Origin: a bacterium
Lineage (GTDB): Bacteria > UBP6 > JAFGXH01
DNA length: 36,606 nucleotides
Assembly (NCBI GenBank): GCA_027064085.1
Contig: JAMOQH010000122.1
Location: 1 to 36,606 of the forward strand
Reading direction: 5' to 3'
The notes below the pieces were generated by a model that was given only the letters and a program-made list of their open reading frames with translations, had not been told where the DNA came from and did no database searches. Positions 7,846-31,576 of this stretch are shown here, piece after piece. The first letter of the stretch is position 1. Each line of letters starts with the position of its first letter. The position numbers and the translations under genes were made by a program.

Positions 7846-7877
7846 AAAATATCAAATTGATTTTTATTGAGGAATCT

Positions 7878-10800
7878 ATGTATAAAATTTTATTTATTTT
7901 TATTATAATCTTTTTTATCTCTTGCGGTAAAAACACCATAGAAGAAAGCCATGTTTGCTTAACTAAAAGTGATTGTTTACAAAATTATGAATGTAAATTT
8001 GATACTAGCAATGGTAAGGATTATGGTAAATGTATCAAACTGGATAGCTGTACAACAGATGATGACTGTTATGGTAATTTAATTTGTAATAAAGATAAAA
8101 AATGTAGTTCTATTAGTTTTAAAATTAAATCAAGCGAATTAGATTCTGCAAATAGAGGTATTGAATATTCTTCTCAAATCATATTTGAAGGCTTAAAAGA
8201 TAATAACTTTTATTTTGAAGCAATAGATAAATTACCTTTAGGATTAAGTTTATCTGATAGTGGCTTAATTACAGGAACCCCAACAAAATTAGGTGAATAT
8301 AAATTTAATGTTAGACTATATGGCCATGCTAAAGGGGAAACTATTTATTTTAATACAAACTATATAGAAAAACTTTTAACAATGAAGGTTCTAGGTGAAG
8401 TTTGTGACCCGAATCCATGTCAAGGGCTTAATAAAACTAAATGTTCTGAAGATACAACAACTGATTTAGGATATAAATGTGATTGTGATGATAATTTTAT
8501 TTTAGATGGAAGTAACTGTGTTGCAGATATTTGTAATAATCCTAGTAATCCTTGTACGGAAACTAATAAAACCATTTGCAATCCTAATGAAGACAATAGC
8601 GACTATACTTGTTTATGTGATGAAGGTTTTTATAGCAATGAAGCAGGTAACTGCATTGTTGATTATTGCAATACTGAAACAAATCCCTGTACTGAAGAAA
8701 ATAGAACCAAATGTGTTAACGATGAAGAAGAAACAATTGGTTATAAATGTGAATGCGATGACGGCTTGATTGAATATGAAGGAGTTTGTATTGAAGATAT
8801 TTGTGCAAATAATCCATGCACAGATAGTGTAAAAAATATATGTGTAATAGATTTAAATGAAGAAAACAACTATAAGTGCAAATGTAAAGCAAATTTTTAT
8901 GAAGCTGAAAATGGAAGTTGCTATTATGACTCATGTGATGTTTTAAAGCCATGTAATACTCAGGCTCATATAGATTCATACAAAACTAGATGTATTAATG
9001 AGGAAAATTCTTATACTTGTGAATGCGATGACAGATATGATGTCGATGAAGCAGGTAACTGTTATTTTAATCCTTGTAAAATTAATCATTGCAGAGATCC
9101 GTATAAATCAGTTTGTGTTGCAACTGGAGCAGGTGAACAAGACTATGAATGTCAATGTGATCAAGGTTATGCTCTTACTCCTAATAATAAATGCTATTTA
9201 ATTGGTGATTTATGTGAAACAGCAATAGATACTCAAGCTAGTACCAACTACACCGGTGACACAACTTTTATGCACGCTGATTATGTTGCTACTTGTGGTT
9301 CTTACGCTCAATCAAATGATAGTGTTTATAAGTTTACACTTACTGAAGCTAAGTTAATTACAGCAACTCTAATAACATCAGAAGATGCTCCATATCATCC
9401 AGTTATTCATATTAAGGATAGTTGTGAAAATGATTCTAATCAAATGGCTTGCTCTGATAGAGATGGAGAAAATATTAATACAGCTAAAATCGATAAAAAA
9501 TATCTAGAAGCAGGTACATATTACATATTTGTTGATGGTTATGCAGTTACTAATATGGGAGCTTATACTTTAAATTATGAGTATAGTGACCCTTGTTTTC
9601 AAGATTCTGATTGCTCAAACGATAATACTACATTTTGTGACTTAGACAGTCATATTTGTAAGGAAAATAAATGTATTAATAATCCTTTAGCTTGTGACAA
9701 TGGAACTTGCAATAGGCTTGATGCAACTTGTAAGTGTGATGAAGGTTATATAAATAGTGATGATTTTACTTGTGTTACGGATCCTTGTTATAATACCCTA
9801 TGTACAGAGAATTCGACTTGTGTTGTTAGTGATGATTTAAATTCTTACGAATGTAAGTGTAATGAGAATTTCTTGAAAACTAATAATGGTTTATGCTTGC
9901 AAAATCCATGTATGCCAACAAATACTTGCACAGAAACACATAAAAAGAAATGTACTTATAATCTTTTAGATGATAGCATAGAAACAGTTTGTTCATGTGA
10001 TGATAATTATATAGAAGAGAACGGTACATGTGTTGCAACAATAGCAGATTCATGCCCTGGAGTAACTCTTCCTGCAAATACTACCCTAACAGGGGACACA
10101 ACAACATTACACAATAACTATACTTCAAAAACAAACAGTGCAAAAGGCCCTGAGGCTGTTTATAACTTTAGGCTAGATAAATTATCTCATGTTACTATTA
10201 CTATGGGTTTTACAAGTACAACTACTTGGGATCAGTATTTGCATCTAAGAAAAAATTCTTGTACAGACAGCACAGCACAGGTTGCATATTCTGACCACTA
10301 TTCAGATCCAGAGGTAATTGAGGAAGATTTAGAAGCAGGTACCTATTATGTTTTTGCAGATGGTTATAGTGAAACTAAAAAAGGCCCATTTACTATTTTA
10401 TTAAATATAGAACCACTATGTTCTACTAATAGTGATTGTATTGGAGAGCATCAATTATGTAATACTACTTCAAACAGATGTGAATGTGAAATAGGTTTTG
10501 GCTTTAGTAACGATATGACCTGTTATGAAACTTGTATGCAAATCGGTGAAGAATACTTTTGCTCTGACCCATTATATGAATGTAATACCGATGAAGGCTT
10601 ATGCTATAAAAGAACAGAATGTGAACCTACATGCACAGAAAATTCACATTGTAATCTAGATAATTTAGAATGTGACTGTAATGAAGGATTTATTAAGAAC
10701 GAAACAGGAGAATGTGTAACTGATTTATGTTTGGCTAATTCCGTTGACTGTAATGGTGAAAATGTTTTTTGTAATGGTGTAATAGGTGAATGTACTTGCC

Positions 10801-12236
10801 ATGAAGGTTATGAAAATTATATTGCTGGAGTAGGCTGTACTGAAGATACTAATCCTTGTACTCCTCTTGCTTCTCAATGCACAGAAACTAATAAAACAAA
10901 ATGTATTCCAACGGGAACCGGCGATAATGACTATATTTGTGAATGTAATGATGGATTTATTGAAAATAATGATGCAACTTGTATTGATAATGCTTGTGAA
11001 CCTAATCCGTGTGGAACAAACTCAGTTTGTAATCTAGATTCTAGTTTTCATTCTGTTTGTTCATGTAAGGCTGGTTTTGAATATAATGTAAATAATATTT
11101 GTCAAGAGATTAAGGGGAACACTTGTAGTTCTCCTAAATTAATTGATTTAGCAGACTTTAGTGATTCAATTACAGATTCTCTAACAAATTCACAAACTTT
11201 AAGTTGTCAAATAACTGAAAACAAAGATAAAATTTATCAGTTTACGGTAGATTCCGATACTATTCTGTCTGTTGACCTAACAACAAATGATTTTAACTAT
11301 GTTTTAGCTATATCAAAGGGTTGTGAAAGTGATTTTATTGAATTATCGTGTGCAAACAGTATTTCAAATCTAAATTTAACAGCAGGAACATACTACTTAC
11401 ATGTTAAATCAGATAATATTGGTAACTTTGATATTAATTTTACTGTAAATGAATCTCTATATTTAGTAAAAAACACTCTTTTGGATGCTGTTTTAAATAA
11501 AAACTACAATGAAGTGATTCATGTTGGTGGTGGAGTTTCTCCATATAATATTGAATTGAAAGCAGGTGAAAATCTTCCTATTGGTTTGAATTTATCACAA
11601 AATTATATATCAGGAATACCATCAGAAATAACTTCTGATGACAATAGTTTTATAATTACTGTAACTGATGCAAATAATACTTCAAAAGATTTTACAGTTA
11701 ATTTATCTGTTGTTGATGATTCTACACCTCTAAAACCTAAAAAAGGAGATTTATTAATAAATGAAGTTTACTATAAAGTAAATAATGATGTTAATAATGA
11801 TGGAACACTTGACATTGATGATGATGAATTTATAGAAATCGTTAATATTTCATATAAAAACTTAAACCTTGACGGATTATCTATATGGGATAGCCTTAAT
11901 TACTCATACAGACATAATTTTACCGAAATTTTAAATTCAGGAAATGCAATTGTTATATTTGGTGGCGGTGACTTATCAAATATGTCAGAAAATAATGTTA
12001 CTTTTGTTATAGCAACTTCAGGTACATTATCATTAAAGAACTCAAGTGATAAAGTGAGAATTATTGATGAGAATAATAATGAATTAGAATCAATAACTTA
12101 TACATCAAATGGAGTAAATGGCTCAATAAACAGAAATCCTGATTTAACAGAGTCTTCATTTGCACCTCATACAGAAGTTAGTGAAAACGATGCTCTTTAT
12201 TCGCCTGGTAAAAAAGCTAATGGTGATTCTTTTTAA
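7878..12236 (+). CDS. giant multidomain lipoprotein with EGF-like, PPC, Ig-like and lamin-tail domains
   Basis: A 1452-residue predicted lipoprotein. The start is the ATG at 7878, since GAGG lies 5 bases before it; a TTG at 7857 has no site. The signal peptide ends at lipobox FFIS-C16. In order: a short Cys-rich region; a putative-Ig (He_PIG) domain about 78-150 with LPLGLSLSDSGLITGTP; six EGF-like modules about 176-444; a PPC-type beta-domain about 454-570; three EGF-like modules; a second PPC about 726-848; five EGF-like modules; a third PPC about 1079-1193; a second He_PIG about 1193-1280 with LPIGLNLS and ISGIP; and a C-terminal lamin-tail-like domain about 1288-1450 starting KKGDLLINEVYY, with Asp-rich NNDGTLDIDDDE. 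All parts suggest calcium-binding adhesion or protein binding at the cell surface. No enzyme motif is seen. Monocistronic. Confidence 0.85.
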   Translation: MYKILFIFIIIFFISCGKNTIEESHVCLTKSDCLQNYECKFDTSNGKDYGKCIKLDSCTTDDDCYGNLICNKDKKCSSISFKIKSSELDSANRGIEYSSQIIFEGLKDNNFYFEAIDKLPLGLSLSDSGLITGTPTKLGEYKFNVRLYGHAKGETIYFNTNYIEKLLTMKVLGEVCDPNPCQGLNKTKCSEDTTTDLGYKCDCDDNFILDGSNCVADICNNPSNPCTETNKTICNPNEDNSDYTCLCDEGFYSNEAGNCIVDYCNTETNPCTEENRTKCVNDEEETIGYKCECDDGLIEYEGVCIEDICANNPCTDSVKNICVIDLNEENNYKCKCKANFYEAENGSCYYDSCDVLKPCNTQAHIDSYKTRCINEENSYTCECDDRYDVDEAGNCYFNPCKINHCRDPYKSVCVATGAGEQDYECQCDQGYALTPNNKCYLIGDLCETAIDTQASTNYTGDTTFMHADYVATCGSYAQSNDSVYKFTLTEAKLITATLITSEDAPYHPVIHIKDSCENDSNQMACSDRDGENINTAKIDKKYLEAGTYYIFVDGYAVTNMGAYTLNYEYSDPCFQDSDCSNDNTTFCDLDSHICKENKCINNPLACDNGTCNRLDATCKCDEGYINSDDFTCVTDPCYNTLCTENSTCVVSDDLNSYECKCNENFLKTNNGLCLQNPCMPTNTCTETHKKKCTYNLLDDSIETVCSCDDNYIEENGTCVATIADSCPGVTLPANTTLTGDTTTLHNNYTSKTNSAKGPEAVYNFRLDKLSHVTITMGFTSTTTWDQYLHLRKNSCTDSTAQVAYSDHYSDPEVIEEDLEAGTYYVFADGYSETKKGPFTILLNIEPLCSTNSDCIGEHQLCNTTSNRCECEIGFGFSNDMTCYETCMQIGEEYFCSDPLYECNTDEGLCYKRTECEPTCTENSHCNLDNLECDCNEGFIKNETGECVTDLCLANSVDCNGENVFCNGVIGECTCHEGYENYIAGVGCTEDTNPCTPLASQCTETNKTKCIPTGTGDNDYICECNDGFIENNDATCIDNACEPNPCGTNSVCNLDSSFHSVCSCKAGFEYNVNNICQEIKGNTCSSPKLIDLADFSDSITDSLTNSQTLSCQITENKDKIYQFTVDSDTILSVDLTTNDFNYVLAISKGCESDFIELSCANSISNLNLTAGTYYLHVKSDNIGNFDINFTVNESLYLVKNTLLDAVLNKNYNEVIHVGGGVSPYNIELKAGENLPIGLNLSQNYISGIPSEITSDDNSFIITVTDANNTSKDFTVNLSVVDDSTPLKPKKGDLLINEVYYKVNNDVNNDGTLDIDDDEFIEIVNISYKNLNLDGLSIWDSLNYSYRHNFTEILNSGNAIVIFGGGDLSNMSENNVTFVIATSGTLSLKNSSDKVRIIDENNNELESITYTSNGVNGSINRNPDLTESSFAPHTEVSENDALYSPGKKANGDSF

Positions 12237-22615: not shown

Positions 22616-22871
22616 ATTATTCCTCACAAAATATATACCTAAGCTATATCAAATTATAGATAAAATGTGAAGTTTTTATTTTATTTAAAAAATTAAAATA
22701 AAAATATTATATTTTCATTAATTGAAGATAAATTAGAATAAATTATAGTATTTTTCGTCAAATATGAATACAGCAATATTTTACTATTACTGTTATTATG
22801 AAAAAAGAACTATAATATTGACGAAATATTAAAAATGTTTTATAGTCTTTTATACTTTTTTTTGGGGAAAG
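22616..22871. other. divergent intergenic region, about 256 bp, AT-rich
   Basis: It separates thiS (minus) from the protease operon (plus). TTTTCGTCA (22752-22760) is repeated in inverse form as TGACGAAA (22819-22826), about 58 bp apart. The second copy overlaps the -35 of the downstream promoter, so this pair could be an operator. No gene or tRNA is seen. Confidence 0.4.
22818..22846 (+). promoter_or_regulatory. likely promoter of the HtrA/M16 operon
   Basis: TTGACG (22818-22823), a 17-bp spacer, then TATAGT (22841-22846). It lies 25 bp before the first ATG. Confidence 0.6.
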
Positions 22872-23774
22872 ATGAAATACATAATCATATTTTTTATAAC
22901 TTATAATATCCTGGGAACTACAGAATTTTATTTAAAAAATAATGCAATGATTAAAGGAGATGTAATAAGAGAAAATGATGAAAACACATTAGTTGATATT
23001 GGTTATCAAATAATTTTAATACCTAAAAAATCTATAATAAAAACTCAAAAAACCTATAATAAAAACAAAATTACTATTAAAAGTGATTCTACATTTTTTA
23101 AGCAAAATAAAAATATCAAGAAACAAAATATTAAAAATCTAGTTCCTAAACTCGGAGAGGCTGTTGTTGTTGTAAACACTCCATCAGGATTAGGAACAGG
23201 TTTTATAATTAATGAACAGGGATATTTAATAACAAATTACCATGTTATTGAAAAAGAAAAAAACTTAAAAGTAACAATGTTTATCCAAAAAAATAAAACT
23301 GTTGAAACAATAGTTTATAAAAAAATAAAAATAATAGCTTATAATCCATTTTTAGACTTAGCATTATTAAGAATAAATGATATTCCAAATAAAAAGTTCA
23401 AATATGTAAATTTTGGTAATATAAATGAAAACAAAGTTGGTGATACTGTTTTTGCAATAGGTACTCCATTAGGCTTAGAGCGTTCTGTAACACAGGGAAT
23501 AATATCATCATCAAGCAGAAACTACAATGGCATTTTATATATACAAACAACAGCACCTATAAATCCAGGTAATAGTGGAGGCCCCTTATTTAACTTAAAA
23601 GGAGAAGTAATAGGAGTTACAAATATGGGTTATGTCTTTTCTGATGGATTAGGATTTGCTATACCCATTGATTATGTAAAGCATTTTTTAAAAAATAGGG
23701 AATCATTCTATTATAATGAATATAATTACAATACTGGTTTTAGGTATTTAGAACCACCTAGAAAATCTAAATAG
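22872..23774 (+). CDS. secreted trypsin-like (HtrA-type) serine protease without PDZ domain
   Basis: A 300-residue protein with an N-terminal signal peptide (about residues 1-16). A small basic domain follows (about 18-60, containing IKGDVIRENDENTLVDIGYQ). The trypsin-like S1C domain (about 90-270) has GTGFIINEQGYLITNYHV with His124, NPFLDLALLRI with Asp162 and NPGNSGGPLF with Ser235, so the catalytic triad is complete. It ends soon after the protease domain and therefore lacks the PDZ domains of DegP/DegS, an unusually short form. GGGG(A) precedes the ATG by about 5 bases. It is the first gene of a four-gene operon with a DUF3352-like protein and two M16 proteins. A role in envelope protein quality control or processing is inferred. 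Confidence 0.85.
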   Translation: MKYIIIFFITYNILGTTEFYLKNNAMIKGDVIRENDENTLVDIGYQIILIPKKSIIKTQKTYNKNKITIKSDSTFFKQNKNIKKQNIKNLVPKLGEAVVVVNTPSGLGTGFIINEQGYLITNYHVIEKEKNLKVTMFIQKNKTVETIVYKKIKIIAYNPFLDLALLRINDIPNKKFKYVNFGNINENKVGDTVFAIGTPLGLERSVTQGIISSSSRNYNGILYIQTTAPINPGNSGGPLFNLKGEVIGVTNMGYVFSDGLGFAIPIDYVKHFLKNRESFYYNEYNYNTGFRYLEPPRKSK

Positions 23775-23781
23775 GAGGAAT

Positions 23782-25449
23782 ATGAAAATATTTTTTTTAA
23801 TATTTATAACTATCAATGTCTTTACTTATGATTTTTCAAAAGACTTACCTAAAAATACTTTGTTTTACCTTACAGTTAGAGATTTTAATGGCTTAGAACA
23901 AAAATCAAGCAAAACTTCATTAGGAAATTTTTATAAATCTAAAAATTTTAAATCTATAGAAAACAACTTAAAAAAAATTGCTTCATTAATTATTTATAAT
24001 GAAGAACAAGATATGAATAAAATAGAAAGTTTTTATAAAAACTTTAAAAAACTAACATTTAATCCTTTTGCATTAAGTGTAGGATTCTCAAAGCTTTTTA
24101 AACCACAATATGCATTATTAATTAAGGGAAAAGAGCTTGATAAAACTTTTGAAATACTATATAGGGATTTTTTAAAAAAAGATTTTAAACAAGCTAATAT
24201 TAAAATAAAAAAGGAAATTTATAAAAATATAAAAGTAAATATTCTAGAAATTAAAAGAAAAATCAAGAGTAAAAAAAATATTTATAAAAACTATAAAAGA
24301 TCTGTAAAAAAAGAAAAGAAAATAATTGTTTATGCAGTAATTAATGACAAATTGATTATAACAAATTCTAAAGAGTACATGAATCTTATTATTTCAACAA
24401 TAAAAAATATAAATACTCCTAAATTATCGAATAATTTAACTTTTAAAAACAATAATCAAACATATAGAAAGTCTGATTTTTATATGTTTCTTAATGTTAA
24501 AACAATGTTGAAACTTGCATCTATAGATAAAGATACAAAACAACTAATTAATAATTACTCCTTAAATAAATTGGAGTCACTAATTTCTTATTTTGAATTC
24601 GAGAACAATAGTTATAGTGTTTTTATAAAATTAATATCTACAAATACACTTCCTGCAATAATTAAAGATGTATTATTTAAAAATACAACAATAAATATAC
24701 CACAATTCATACCAGAAACATGTTATAGTTTTAATGCAATAAATATAGATTTCTCTAAACTCCTTGCATTAACAAATAAATTTCATACAGAAAGAGAAAA
24801 TAGAAAAGTTAAAAAATTTGAAGCACAATTAGGAATAACACTTAAAGATGTGGCAAATTCTTTTGGTAAAACATTATATTACTTAAGTTTTTTTAAAAAC
24901 AATAAGGATAATGGAATTATTTTGTTTACCTATGATAACCCTAACTTTTTACTAAAATTAATAACAACTCTTGGAAATAATCCTATAGTAGGTATGACTG
25001 AAAAAAACTATCTTGATGGTAAAATAATTACAGCATCAGGAAATTTTAGTATGATAGGCTATGCCTTAGGCTACAAAAATAATAATTTTATATTTGGTAA
25101 CACAATAATAGTAAAAGAAATGATGCAAAAAATGACAGGTAGTAGTGGGCTATTTTACAATACTAAATTTTATAAAAATCTAATTTCTGCGATGTCAGGA
25201 CAACAAAGTGCGATTAGTTTTACTAAAACATCAACTTCTATTTTTAATATAGTAAAAGAATTTCAGAAAACTTTTAAAAAAAAGTATGAAATGGCCTCAG
25301 ATAAAAAAGAAATGAAGATATTGAAAACGATTAAGAGCATTGTTAATTCACTTACTCAATATTCAATTACTGACTTAAACAAATACTTTAGCTACTCTCT
25401 AGCAAAAATTTATATTGATAAAAATGAATTAGTTTTAAAAATCAAATAA
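23782..25449 (+). CDS. exported protein of unknown function, DUF3352-like
   Basis: A 555-residue protein with a signal peptide (about residues 1-15). Its start TYDFSKDLPKNTLFYLTVRDFNGLE and later elements such as FNPFALSVGF, IPQFIPETCYSFNAINIDFSKL and TGSSGLFYNTKFYKNL recall DUF3352-type secreted proteins of planctomycetes and deltaproteobacteria, but that match is from memory and modest. It has a very Lys/Asn-rich middle and no enzyme motif or further membrane helix. AGGAGG stands 5 bases before the ATG, and the gene starts 7 bp after the protease gene. It may be a periplasmic substrate-binding or regulatory partner of the proteases in this operon. Confidence 0.6.
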   Translation: MKIFFLIFITINVFTYDFSKDLPKNTLFYLTVRDFNGLEQKSSKTSLGNFYKSKNFKSIENNLKKIASLIIYNEEQDMNKIESFYKNFKKLTFNPFALSVGFSKLFKPQYALLIKGKELDKTFEILYRDFLKKDFKQANIKIKKEIYKNIKVNILEIKRKIKSKKNIYKNYKRSVKKEKKIIVYAVINDKLIITNSKEYMNLIISTIKNINTPKLSNNLTFKNNNQTYRKSDFYMFLNVKTMLKLASIDKDTKQLINNYSLNKLESLISYFEFENNSYSVFIKLISTNTLPAIIKDVLFKNTTINIPQFIPETCYSFNAINIDFSKLLALTNKFHTERENRKVKKFEAQLGITLKDVANSFGKTLYYLSFFKNNKDNGIILFTYDNPNFLLKLITTLGNNPIVGMTEKNYLDGKIITASGNFSMIGYALGYKNNNFIFGNTIIVKEMMQKMTGSSGLFYNTKFYKNLISAMSGQQSAISFTKTSTSIFNIVKEFQKTFKKKYEMASDKKEMKILKTIKSIVNSLTQYSITDLNKYFSYSLAKIYIDKNELVLKIK

Positions 25450-25463
25450 TCTAAAGGAGGAAT

Positions 25464-26771
25464 ATGAAAATTTTAGGTTTTATAATATTACTTTTTACAA
25501 TTACAACTTACAGTAAAAGCAATATTGAAATGAACATTGAAAACTTCAAACTTGATAATGGGTTAAATGTTTATTTAAGTAAAAATAGTGAATCCCCAAC
25601 TGTTGCAATAACTTTATATTATAAGGTTGGATCAATTAACGAACTAAAAAATAAAACAGGATTTGCCCATTTATTTGAACACATGATGTTTCAGGGTACC
25701 AGAAATGTAGAAAAAACAGAACACTTTGCATTACTTCAGAAAGTTGGTGGAAAAGCCAATGCTTTCACAACAAAAGAATACACTGCATATTATGATATTG
25801 TTACAGCTAACCAACTAGAATTAGCGTTATGGTTAGAAGCAGATAGAATGGAAAATTTATCTGTAAACTATCCCAATTTTAAAAACCAATTAGAAGTAGT
25901 CAAAGAAGAAATGAGAATGAGATATTTAAACTCTCCTTATGGAAACCTTGTAAAAACTTTAGATAGAAATGCACATAAATTATGGAATTATCAACATTCT
26001 GTTATTGGAAGCATGAAAGACCTTGACTCTTCTGGTGTAGAATATGCAAAAAGTTTTTTTAAAAAATATTATAATCCTAATAATGCAGTTTTAACTATTG
26101 TTGGAGATATTAATAAAGATGATGCTAAAAAACTTGTAAAAAAATACTTTGCTAATATTAAAAATCAATCAACCAATTATAGTTTAAAGAATAAAAAAGG
26201 GAAAAAAGGGAAAAAACTAACTACGATAGAAGATAAACTTGCAAAATTTCCAGCAATAGGCATTGCCTATCAAGCTCCATCTAAAACGAATTTAAAAGAA
26301 TATTTTGCTATGAAAATGCTTGAAACAATTTTATTTAATAATGATTCTTCTAGACTATATAGGCTATTAATAAAAGATAAAGAACTTGCTGTATCCATTT
26401 ATGGTGGCATCAATAACTTAAAGAGTGACAACTTATTTTATATCTTTTCAATGGTTAAAAAAGGAAATGTTAAAAAAGTTAGAAACTTAATATTTAAAGA
26501 AATCAAAAATATTAAAAAAAAGGGTATCACAGAAGTAGAACTTAAAAAAGCAAAACTTAGTTTTAAAACAGAATTTATTTTTCATTTAGAATCAAATATA
26601 TCAAAAGCTCTTATGATAGGAGAATTTTCTGCATTATATGGTTCCCCTGATGAGATTAAAAATTTATTATCAATAATAGATAGCATTACAGTTAAAGATG
26701 TTAAAACCATTGCTAATAAATATATGAAAAAAGAATTTTTAACTGAAGTTGATGTTAAATTAGCTAAATAG
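25464..26771 (+). CDS. periplasmic M16 family zinc peptidase, catalytic subunit
   Basis: A 435-residue protein with a signal peptide (about residues 1-18). It has the inverted zinc-binding motif HxxEH: His69, catalytic Glu72 and His73 within GFAHLFEHMMFQGT, and a Glu (148/149) about 75 residues further as third ligand. This is the M16B (processing-peptidase-like) pattern. A second M16 C-terminal domain spans about 190-370, with NPNNAVLTIVGDI and SSRLYRLL. Bacterial M16B proteins usually work with a non-catalytic partner encoded next door, and that partner is the next gene. AGGAGG precedes the ATG. It likely degrades or processes peptides in the periplasm. Confidence 0.92.
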   Translation: MKILGFIILLFTITTYSKSNIEMNIENFKLDNGLNVYLSKNSESPTVAITLYYKVGSINELKNKTGFAHLFEHMMFQGTRNVEKTEHFALLQKVGGKANAFTTKEYTAYYDIVTANQLELALWLEADRMENLSVNYPNFKNQLEVVKEEMRMRYLNSPYGNLVKTLDRNAHKLWNYQHSVIGSMKDLDSSGVEYAKSFFKKYYNPNNAVLTIVGDINKDDAKKLVKKYFANIKNQSTNYSLKNKKGKKGKKLTTIEDKLAKFPAIGIAYQAPSKTNLKEYFAMKMLETILFNNDSSRLYRLLIKDKELAVSIYGGINNLKSDNLFYIFSMVKKGNVKKVRNLIFKEIKNIKKKGITEVELKKAKLSFKTEFIFHLESNISKALMIGEFSALYGSPDEIKNLLSIIDSITVKDVKTIANKYMKKEFLTEVDVKLAK

Positions 26772-26782
26772 CGAGGTAAATA

Positions 26783-29089
26783 ATGAAAAAATTTATATTA
26801 TTAATAATGTCACTAATACTCATGAATAGTTGTGGAATGTTAGGAACTACAACTAAACCATTGAAAAAATCATATTTAACTGTTGAAGTAGATATACCTG
26901 ATAGAGGCATGGCTATTTCAGAATTAAATAAAGAAGCAATTTCTATTTTAAGTAAAACGAATTTAAGTAAGCCTGTAAATTTTGAATACAAGAAATTTTC
27001 AGGAAATGATATTATTATTTTTAAAAATTCAGAAAACGCCAATATAAACCCTATTAAAATAGAAGGTAGTGCAAATGGATATAAAGCTAAATACTTAATT
27101 ACACATACAGGAGTTCAATTATCTAAACTAAAAGGAAATAAATTAGTAAAAATAATTGCGAAAGGTAACTCTTTGTCTTCCGCAATAGAAACAGGAATAA
27201 AAAATATACTTCAAAAAGAACTTAAAGAAAGTCAAGTTATAAATATTTCTGGTAAATTAAATATTGTAAATATTTTTAATGTTAATTATGGAGTTAAAGA
27301 TATTACCGTTGATTTCAGCATTGCTTATACATTTAAAAATAATGGTAACTTAACTGCAGCAGATAGAGCAAATTTTTATGCAGAAGTTGGAATAACAGAA
27401 TACTATAAAAAGCATACAGGGAAGGCATATTCTATGGCCGAAAAAGGCATTAATACATATAAAAAATGTGATAAATGTCTTTATTTAAAAGGAATATTAA
27501 ATCTTAGAGATAAAAATTATGATAGAGCTATTTATAATTTAGAAAAAGCCTATGAATATAATAAGGATAATATATATTACTGTCAAAAATTACAAAAAGC
27601 TTATACTGAAATATATGAATTAATAAATACATCAACAGAACAAGGAAAAAAATATAAAAAAGAAGTTCAAGCAAAAGCATTTGCTATTGCTGCTTACATT
27701 GGAAGACATTTTAATCCTGATGGAAGTGTTTATATTAAACATAAACCACCATTTTCATCAAAAACTTTAAAATTTAACCTTCCTAATGTAAAAAATACTA
27801 ATTTAAAAAATGGATTATTAATTTCTGAACTTGTAAAAAACGAACTCCCTCTGTTTAATATAACTATAGGCTTTAATTTTGGTTCAGTTGATAACCCTAA
27901 AGGAAAAATGGGAATGATAGATTCTATTTTTGACTTATTAAAAGAGGGTGTAGAAGGTAAATCCTCTAAAGAAATTGCGAATTTTATAGACGATAATGGT
28001 TTAAGCTTATCTACAGGAGTTACAAATGATTATTCAACAATAACTTGTTCTTCACTAACTGAAAATGCAGATAAATGTATCGAGTTATTAGACTTACTTG
28101 TTAAAAAAGCTAGTTTTCCAAATGGAGAATATAAAAAATATATGAAAAAAAGAGTTGAGTACTATCATGCAAATACAGCAAATGCATCTTATCTTGCAAA
28201 TAAACTTCTATATAGATTAGTTTTTGGTAAACATAACTATGGATATTATGATGCAACATTAAAAACTCTCAGTAACATTAAATTAGATGATATTAAAGCC
28301 TTTTATAAAGATTATTTTAATCCTAAAAATGCTTATATTGTTATTTCAGGTAAGTATAGTAAAGAAGTACTAAACAATATAAAATCTAAATTCAATGATT
28401 GGAATTTGGGAAAAATAATAGAAAAAACAGCTAAAACTACAATTAAACCATTAAAAGAAAATAGACAATTAATTTATGTTATTGATAGACCTAGCTCTAA
28501 ACAAGTAGTTATTTCTTATGGCCAAACGGCTCCTTCTTATAGTTCTAAAAACACCTTAGCTCTTTACATGGGAAATTTAATTTTGGGTGGAAGTGCAAGT
28601 AGTAGATTATTTATGAGATTAAGAGAAAAAGAAAGCTTAACTTATGGTGCTTATAGTAATATTTCAGCTAAACGTGAAGCAGGACTTTTTAAAGCAGGAT
28701 TATCTGTTAGAAATGAAGTTGTTGGCAAAGCTGTTTCATCATTATTAGATGAATTAAAGAAATTTAAAGAAAAAGGAATTATCAAAAAAGAACTTAGTGA
28801 TAAAAAAGGTTTAGAAAATGGTGCATTTGCAATGAAACTACAAGGATTTGGTTACATATCTATGCTCATAAAATCAAAAATGTTTAAGCTCCCTAAAAAT
28901 TACTTTGAAAACTATCTATCTAATTTATCAAAATTAACAGTTAAAGATATTAATAATGCTGTTAAAAATATTATCACTCCAAATAAAGGAATAATTGTAA
29001 TTGTTGGAGATAGTAAATCTTTTATAAGTCAATTAAAATCATTTGGGCAGGTTGTTGTTTTAGATGAAAATCTTAAAGTAAAAAAATAA
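26783..29089 (+). CDS. lipoprotein with TPR-like region fused to a non-catalytic M16 domain
   Basis: A 768-residue predicted lipoprotein with lipobox LMNS-C17. Residues about 30-190 form an unrecognised domain; about 195-275 look like tetratricopeptide repeats (AIYNLEKAYEYNKDN); about 320-768 form a complete M16 pair of domains (LPNVKNTNLKNGLLISEL, SSRLFMRLREKESLTYGA). At the place of the zinc motif it reads GMIDSIFDLLKEG (about 377-389) without the His residues, so it is presumably inactive and acts as the partner of the M16 peptidase encoded just upstream (11 bp). The lipid anchor plus TPR would place the heterodimer on a membrane and add a docking surface. Such a TPR-M16 lipoprotein is longer than the typical partner (about 430-500 residues). 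GAGG lies 6 bases before the ATG. Confidence 0.85.
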   Translation: MKKFILLIMSLILMNSCGMLGTTTKPLKKSYLTVEVDIPDRGMAISELNKEAISILSKTNLSKPVNFEYKKFSGNDIIIFKNSENANINPIKIEGSANGYKAKYLITHTGVQLSKLKGNKLVKIIAKGNSLSSAIETGIKNILQKELKESQVINISGKLNIVNIFNVNYGVKDITVDFSIAYTFKNNGNLTAADRANFYAEVGITEYYKKHTGKAYSMAEKGINTYKKCDKCLYLKGILNLRDKNYDRAIYNLEKAYEYNKDNIYYCQKLQKAYTEIYELINTSTEQGKKYKKEVQAKAFAIAAYIGRHFNPDGSVYIKHKPPFSSKTLKFNLPNVKNTNLKNGLLISELVKNELPLFNITIGFNFGSVDNPKGKMGMIDSIFDLLKEGVEGKSSKEIANFIDDNGLSLSTGVTNDYSTITCSSLTENADKCIELLDLLVKKASFPNGEYKKYMKKRVEYYHANTANASYLANKLLYRLVFGKHNYGYYDATLKTLSNIKLDDIKAFYKDYFNPKNAYIVISGKYSKEVLNNIKSKFNDWNLGKIIEKTAKTTIKPLKENRQLIYVIDRPSSKQVVISYGQTAPSYSSKNTLALYMGNLILGGSASSRLFMRLREKESLTYGAYSNISAKREAGLFKAGLSVRNEVVGKAVSSLLDELKKFKEKGIIKKELSDKKGLENGAFAMKLQGFGYISMLIKSKMFKLPKNYFENYLSNLSKLTVKDINNAVKNIITPNKGIIVIVGDSKSFISQLKSFGQVVVLDENLKVKK

Positions 29090-30801: not shown

Positions 30802-31551
30802 CTATTCAGCTTCGCAACCTTTTCCATCTTCTGTAGTTTTAAAGCCTTGATTACAAGTACAAAGAGCATTGCCTTCATCATCGGTGTCACATGTTCCTTG
30901 ATAATTACAGGTAACACCTTTACAAGGCGATGAAATTATCTCTGTTGATTTAACACACACATACATACCCTTTAGAGGATGCCCTTGTAATTGAATAGGA
31001 CTTACACAATTATAGTTTTCAGGACAACCTATCGCAACACATTTACCTTGTTCTGAACACTCAAGTCCTGTATCACACATACCTGTAATATTCTGGGGGC
31101 TACATTTTGTATTTTCAAGAACACAGTTTCCTTGAAGATATACTTCATTAGGTTGGCAAATTGATTGACAATTTCCAGACTCATTACATTTTTTACCTTC
31201 AGGACACAAACCACTTAAATTTTCAGGAGAACAAGTTTTTGCAATTTCATAACAAACGGCATCTACACATTTTTCTGTAGATTTACAAATAACATCACCT
31301 ATTTTAGTAGTTTCATTATAACAAGTTCTTTTGGGACCACATTTTTGAGTACAATAAGAACCATTTCCGTCATAAGAGATGCATAAAGCATCGCTATCAA
31401 GAGTCATACAATCTAAATTTTTCTGTTCAATTTTAGTAACATGCTCTGATGTAGGCTTTAAAAGAGCACAATTATCACCTAATTTTGCATTATTTTCACA
31501 ACTAATTGCTAAAAAAACTAAAATAAATATAGTTATTTTTAATAATTTCAT
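30802..31551 (-). CDS. Cys-rich EGF-like lipoprotein
   Basis: A 249-residue predicted lipoprotein. The ATG at 31551 is chosen because GGAGG stands 8 bases before it; an ATG five codons upstream has no site. Lipobox is LAIS-C18. About 25 Cys follow. Two similar units, CSPENLSGLCPEGKKCNESG and CSPQNITGMCDTGLECSEQG, flank a short linker, and the C-terminus is one EGF-like module (about 210-248) with CTCNQGF. It appears to be a disulfide-rich surface protein like the other two EGF lipoproteins in the window. It has its own strong promoter in front and no partner gene on the same strand. Confidence 0.75.
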   Translation of the reverse strand: MKLLKITIFILVFLAISCENNAKLGDNCALLKPTSEHVTKIEQKNLDCMTLDSDALCISYDGNGSYCTQKCGPKRTCYNETTKIGDVICKSTEKCVDAVCYEIAKTCSPENLSGLCPEGKKCNESGNCQSICQPNEVYLQGNCVLENTKCSPQNITGMCDTGLECSEQGKCVAIGCPENYNCVSPIQLQGHPLKGMYVCVKSTEIISSPCKGVTCNYQGTCDTDDEGNALCTCNQGFKTTEDGKGCEAE

Positions 31552-31576
31552 AACGATAGCCTCCATTAACTGATGT

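Follow-up and report, generated by a model that had tools for sequence, protein, structure and literature searches.

Organization of the locus

The DNA considered here, the window, is positions 1 to 36 606 of contig JAMOQH010000122.1 (assembly GCA_027064085.1), from a bacterial genome of 3.65 Mb (G000); two further genomes of the same family, G001 and G002, were compared with it. At 22872-29089 the window carries four open reading frames (ORFs) on one strand, with intergenic gaps of 7, 14 and 11 nt and with opposite-strand genes on both flanks (Table 1). The first gene encodes a protease of the HtrA type. HtrA/Deg proteases (DegP, DegQ, DegS; MEROPS S1C) bind substrates and get activated via PDZ domains; they are the textbook case of PDZ-controlled proteolysis. 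The window protein has no PDZ domain, and it is followed by a gene for a DUF3352-like exported protein and by two genes of the M16 peptidase family (signal peptides of the four products were judged by eye).

An initial annotation of this DNA had placed four genes with gaps of 7-14 nt behind ‘one good promoter’. The tight spacing on one strand is borne out by the ORF coordinates; the promoter does not stand out from chance, being one of 54 promoter-like sites in a region where shuffled sequence gave 64.6 ± 8.8.

Table 1. Features at the locus, with positions in the window; column identities are from alignment A8
Feature	Position	Strand	Remarks
Candidate sigma-70-like promoter upstream of the HtrA gene	22818..22846	+	TTGACG-17-TATAGT, 10/12 matches; not above chance
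Gene 1, PDZ-less HtrA-type serine protease with conserved C-terminal tail	22872..23774	+	300 aa; Trypsin_2, no PDZ, triad
Small N-terminal HtrA segment, LKxGxxIxGDILKE..VDIGxxVxxIP	22920..23039	+	Mean column identity 0.54
HtrA trypsin-like protease domain, aa 98-272	23163..23687	+	Mean column identity 0.72
Conserved C-terminal tail, aa 273-296	23688..23759	+	Mean column identity 0.75; where PDZ domains follow in canonical HtrAs
Gene 2, DUF3352-like exported partner protein	23782..25449	+	555 aa; match to outside-family partner profile
Gene 3, M16 zinc peptidase, active subunit	25464..26771	+	435 aa; M16 + M16_C; HXXEH aa 69-73
Gene 4, M16 inactive-type subunit as lipoprotein	26783..29089	+	768 aa; Cys17; N-terminal TPR-like helices; M16 region aa ~335-760

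Two conserved pairs

In G001 and G002 the HtrA gene adjoins the DUF3352-like gene with a 4-nt overlap, on another contig than the M16 genes; there the M16 active gene adjoins the M16 lipoprotein gene, with neither the HtrA nor the DUF-like gene beside them. Each pair is present in all three genomes of the family, the four-gene row in one of the three, so the conserved co-occurrence of four genes that the initial annotation had looked to does not hold. It had also reckoned with the case that only the M16 genes would turn out to be conserved; in fact genes 1 and 2 are conserved as well and form a separate pair that recurs across phyla. Because the pairs sit on different contigs in both sister genomes, we do not see a single machine here: judged from sequence comparison, the four genes are two evolutionarily separate envelope-proteolysis units, adjacent, among the genomes seen, in this one only.

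The initial annotation had seen in all four products, the M16 lipoprotein included, a single processing machine docked to the membrane. The row with its 7-14 nt gaps in this genome would suit such a machine; given the separated pairs in both sister genomes, and with no M16 gene turning up at 102 further loci scanned around genes of this HtrA type or its partner (flanks of a few kb; L056/L061 and L057/L062 are the same places twice), we hold it to be very improbable.

An HtrA with a conserved tail in place of PDZ domains

Gene 1 matches Pfam Trypsin_2 (E = 2.2e-31) and has no PDZ match, just as the initial annotation had it; all 24 aligned HtrAs (alignment A8) keep the catalytic H124, D162 and S235 unchanged. 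The best match among PDB entries is 1l1j, ‘heat shock protease HtrA’ (1.6e-31, across the protease domain), and orthologues in G001 and G002 are 61-62% identical. The protein stays below every listed NCBIfam HtrA cut-off (168.7 bits versus the cut-off of 416.2 for TIGR02037). It is like HtrA/Deg in being an exported trypsin-fold protease with an intact triad, and differs from them in its lack of PDZ domains, in place of which it has a small segment near the N-terminus and a conserved tail of 24 residues.

The 24 aligned proteins, here called tail-HtrAs, share one architecture: signal sequence, small N-terminal segment, linker, protease, tail. No PDZ family appears among their Pfam matches (E ≤ 0.01); as a control, the 479-aa HtrA of the same genome has two PDZ stretches. 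Since an ordinary two-PDZ HtrA is also in the genome, the tail-HtrA is an additional one. The tail has a consensus of about NRxAFxYDxxNPNTGFxYLxPPR, and the last ~25 residues are nearly identical in the three HtrAs of the window’s family. In the column identities, computed from 23 rows (L145 was left out of the 24), the tail equals the protease domain in conservation, with 0.75 versus 0.72.

A scan with the last 57 HtrA residues detected 220 loci in named species genomes. The best 80 of the 220 (loci L061-L140, found with two peptide patterns, closest relatives being over-represented) include by name 75 planctomycete loci, two that are G001 and G002, two from Verrucomicrobia and one from Alphaproteobacteria. 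At the thresholds used, no tail-HtrA was found in the window’s phylum outside the window’s family. In a tree of 42 HtrA rows the three proteins of the window’s family stand together (SH-aLRT 100), apart from seven outgroup HtrAs; the base of the tree, with long branches flagged, does not resolve and makes no decision between transfer and old inheritance.

A supported branch separates the HtrA of one further genome, G179 (L145), from the other tail-HtrAs; its tail is nonetheless similar. At positions 784-2325 of L145 this HtrA of a different background, with its very similar tail, is followed by a gene of the partner family described below. As the G179 HtrA has both, tail and partner go together on another HtrA background as well; the two may have moved or arisen together.

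The DUF3352-like partner

The 555-aa product of gene 2 is homologous to proteins encoded next to tail-HtrAs elsewhere. A profile built from 53 partner proteins, all from outside the window’s family, matches it over nearly its full length (E = 1.4e-24, Z = 1000), while no other ORF of the window falls below E = 9; the relatives in G001 and G002, 25% identical to the window protein, are matched at 1.9e-20 and 1.2e-19. In hhalign the match reaches 99.5%, against ≤0.5% in four control alignments. The name ‘DUF3352-like’, given in the initial annotation, holds through the relatives: 24 of 33 partner-family members match Pfam DUF3352 (PF11832) at E ≤ 0.01 (best 2.1e-19), whereas the window protein itself has no match to it at E ≤ 1. 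We count it as DUF3352-like because it is homologous to proteins that match PF11832. The partner family shows an internal duplication (hhalign self-comparison, 185 columns, 93.8%); among solved structures its profile gave matches at E = 0.23-0.24 only. A three-sequence profile (A1) missed the partner in genome G299 that profile A7 finds, and absences outside the family by A1 mean little.

We then counted partners at 82 tail-HtrA loci (L061-L140, L144 and L145). In a six-frame profile search, 64 of the 82 loci (62 of 80 without G001 and G002) have a partner-family gene on the HtrA strand, ≤1000 nt downstream; 53 of the 64 proteins so counted are those the profile was trained on. Profile-free BLAST clustering places the downstream genes in one cluster at 59 of 82 loci, immediately next to the HtrA gene at 56. 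Furthermore, partners that were not in the profile follow the tail-HtrAs of the two records named Verrucomicrobia (L122, 2.7e-68; L132, 3.3e-67) and that of G179 (7.1e-23, cut by the contig end). Eighteen of the 82 loci have no partner match; three of them (L074, L078, L121) have <520 nt after HtrA, and in one, L093, a diverged relative of the partner is present. Unrelated genes next to HtrA are of SurA/PpiC type in L130, a TIM barrel in L087 and GH10 in L102; the next gene in L091 could be assigned to no family. At 6231-7640 of L130 the SurA/PpiC-type isomerase comes directly after the tail-HtrA, with no partner-family match found.

An FG-GAP propeller as third component

A third protein recurs at these loci: a beta-propeller of ~750 aa with ‘DxNGDG’-type repeats, matching Pfam FG-GAP_3. 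Members of this family were found in 18 of 103 sources, a sample that is non-random as to the share of L151-L161, which were chosen for odd gene layout. The propeller gene is divergent and upstream of HtrA at nine loci, with products of ~800 aa, lies between HtrA and partner at three, is upstream on the same strand at two and is fused at four. The fusions, with the propeller at the HtrA C-terminus, are in L093, L154, L155 and L156 (both domains are seen by Pfam in L154); in genome G454 repeats of this type follow the tail-HtrA in the same reading frame. The gene after the fusions in L093, L155 and L156 is a diverged DUF3352-like gene, as indicated by hhalign (98.1%) with the three sequences taken as an alignment.

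In the window’s own genome the propeller is encoded at G000:C188:64318-66477; it matches the planctomycete family over positions 47-782 of 783 (E = 1.3e-89), and FG-GAP_3 (PF13517) with 85.7 bits versus the cut-off of 26.9. Each of the three genomes of the window’s family has one near full-length propeller gene. In 58 further relatives, 25 of them from the window’s phylum, no propeller reached E ≤ 1e-30; the best match was 3.1e-22.

Co-occurrence in 197 genomes

We made a census of 197 genomes from the phylum to which G299 belongs; we take it to be Planctomycetota since the G299 HtrA groups with Gimesia. Of these genomes, 51 have the tail-HtrA (53 places) and 100 the partner family; the propeller was found in 46, with ~5 FG-GAP candidates scored per genome, so that propeller absences are not firm. 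Among the propeller genomes 44 of 46 have the tail-HtrA, versus 7 of 151 without the propeller (Fisher p = 6e-34, with kinship not corrected for); both occur in 21 of the 24 families with a tail-HtrA. Tail-HtrA and partner family coincide in 43 genomes (p = 1e-8).

As for gene order, 26 of the 53 HtrA places have the partner immediately downstream, and six have it divergent, 3.2-3.7 kb away. Of the remaining 21 places eight were inspected: two have a downstream partner by profile (G457, G555), two a diverged relative after a fusion (G500, G458) and three no partner nearby (G448, G465, G572); the eighth is G454, with its in-frame repeats. The propeller is ≤5 kb away at 35 of 53 places, fusions included.

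One could argue that such an association reflects mere co-inheritance of envelope proteins acting separately in related lineages, as the census genomes are related and the p-value ignores phylogeny. Against this explanation stand the four in-frame fusions, the recurrent proximity of the propeller in differing gene orders (the 35 of 53 places just mentioned) and the presence of tail-HtrA and propeller in the window’s family, while neither was detected, at the thresholds used, in 25 other genomes of its phylum; we therefore regard co-inheritance as distinctly improbable, if less so than the four-component machine. Homology, coupling of the genes, their co-occurrence in genomes and the fusions give good support to the association of HtrA, DUF3352-like protein and propeller.

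The module is also present in public records under the names Anaeromyxobacter dehalogenans (L062) and Alphaproteobacteria (L125); at least the former name looks wrong, as L062 is itself a contig of G002, in the window’s family.

A possible PDZ substitute in trans

The upstream neighbours (100 of 125 neighbour proteins were scanned) most commonly belong to the Pfam family LptF/LptG (17), followed by FG-GAP (8) and parvulin-type isomerases (6); in G002 (L062, 3062-4983) PpiC-type and SurA-type genes precede the tail-HtrA on the same strand. These neighbours suggest that the module may work in outer-membrane or envelope biogenesis.

On balance we think that genes 1 and 2, with the FG-GAP propeller, probably constitute a conserved three-component extracytoplasmic module in which the PDZ function would be supplied by dedicated partners. 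The HtrA would serve quality control or processing in the envelope; the propeller, the DUF3352-like protein or both would dock in trans on the tail and the protease, and the docked partner or partners would take over substrate recognition and activation, the role of PDZ in DegP/DegS. With the tail and, in four loci, the fused propeller in the PDZ position, the simplest view is that propeller and DUF3352-like protein would act as PDZ substitutes. The initial annotation had looked for substrate selection in either the TPR or the DUF3352-like protein; a role of the latter for the PDZ-less HtrA fits the findings, the one of the TPR-like lipoprotein has no comparative support, and the interpretation given there is, overall, partly supported.

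Several observations weigh against partners of this kind. The propeller match is missing in 7 of the 51 tail-HtrA genomes of the census and the partner match in 8 of 51; no partner is nearby at three inspected loci, L157-L159. Conversely, the partner family occurs in 57 of 146 genomes without the tail-HtrA, and DUF3352-like genes were seen with no tail-type HtrA nearby at L146-L150, L162 and L163; being found at such loci, DUF3352-like proteins are not exclusive to the module. In the window’s family the propeller is unlinked to HtrA, as far as contigs show. For the three genes that follow fusions Pfam gives no DUF3352 match, and their single-sequence scores are weak (1.9e-5, 7.7e-4 and 0.046). 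AlphaFold models of the partner (mean pLDDT 41.5) and of the M16 lipoprotein (39.4), made with three sequences each, were unusable; the docking role of the tail is what we purely infer.

Alternatively, the DUF3352-like protein could be a periplasmic inhibitor or a dedicated substrate of the HtrA, and the propeller a cell-surface anchor rather than a PDZ substitute. Coupling of two genes and an internally duplicated partner suit an inhibitor or a substrate equally, and lectins and integrin domains, which are among the solved FG-GAP relatives, suit anchoring. However, since DUF3352-like proteins occur without tail-HtrA, some of them at least do other jobs, and a propeller fused behind protease and tail suits a regulatory or binding domain; we thus see these roles as unlikely, though a little less so than co-inheritance.

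If PDZ substitution by dedicated partners is carried further, one could speculate about an undescribed, widespread envelope protease complex: a PDZ-less HtrA controlled in trans by an integrin-type FG-GAP propeller and a DUF3352 protein that dock on its tail, a Planctomycetota counterpart of DegP/DegS shared by, or exchanged with, a candidate phylum. We offer this wider proposal tentatively; it might well be wrong. If true, a large natural group of HtrAs with no PDZ but with a conserved tail and two co-inherited partners would show the same control built from separate parts, DUF3352 would get a first functional setting, and Planctomycetota an envelope quality-control system open to testing.

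The nearest precedent is a Streptomyces avermitilis protein, NP_825221.1, described as a trypsin-like domain with C-terminal FG-GAP repeats for which ligand binding was suggested (PMC2605481). It differs in being a single actinomycete protein; tail, DUF3352 partner and three-gene module are not described in the portion of that article drawn upon here. Excerpts of a survey of PDZ proteins (PMC6411480) and of a paper on bacterial integrin-type propellers (PMC3192720) do not mention the module. By title or abstract, none of the top-ranked open-access papers describes an HtrA/DUF3352/propeller module, and the name DUF3352 gave no paper in the open-access literature searched; the three-component module, shared with many Planctomycetes, is apparently undescribed.

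The M16 pair

Gene 3 has the Pfam domains M16 and M16_C, with H69, E72, H73 and E149 invariant in four of four sequences. Gene 4 matches M16_C (5.6e-31) and, as a degenerate N-domain, M16 (0.0044); HXXEH and the distal Glu were not seen in its alignment by eye, and among PDB entries the 768-aa protein best matches chain B of 3amj, ‘zinc peptidase inactive subunit’ (7.4e-29). The active genes of G001 and G002 are 53% and 51% identical to gene 3, and the lipoprotein has 753 aa and 39% identity. The initial annotation had seen in gene 4 a TPR lipoprotein: the lipobox-type Cys17, invariant in three of three homologues, and the M16_C domain agree with this, the TPR part remaining at a sub-threshold TPR_2 match (0.017).

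Judging from these domains, genes 3 and 4 are a predicted ordinary active/inactive M16 heterodimer, lipid-anchored through the inactive subunit and working independently of genes 1 and 2. Like M16 heterodimers such as 3amj, the pair has the gene of an active HXXEH subunit and then that of an inactive-type subunit; unlike in these, the inactive-type subunit is a lipoprotein with an extra N-terminal region of ~300 aa, so far seen in the window’s family only. A three-sequence profile of this region (A11), which may miss distant relatives, found it in the three family genomes of 386, plus one weak match (2.5e-6); its best matches to solved structures are weak ones to LapB TPR (E = 0.028). The M16-lipoprotein scan of genome contigs found no relative.

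A second M16 gene pair is present at G000:C131. In G001 and G002 an ORF of ~121 aa was observed upstream of the counterpart of genes 3 and 4, at L033 11561-11926 and L034 10801-11184, with 86% identity between the two genomes.

Other observations

Matches of window proteins to Pfam Rsbr_N, S1 and SLATT were sub-threshold and were disregarded. Exported proteins rich in Cys are encoded in the window at 30802-31566 (−) and 7857-12236 (+), and elsewhere at L033 5310-7649 and L034 15058-17682. Motifs of EGF-like or similar type are present in some of them; large Cys-rich lipoproteins are recurrent in the window’s family.

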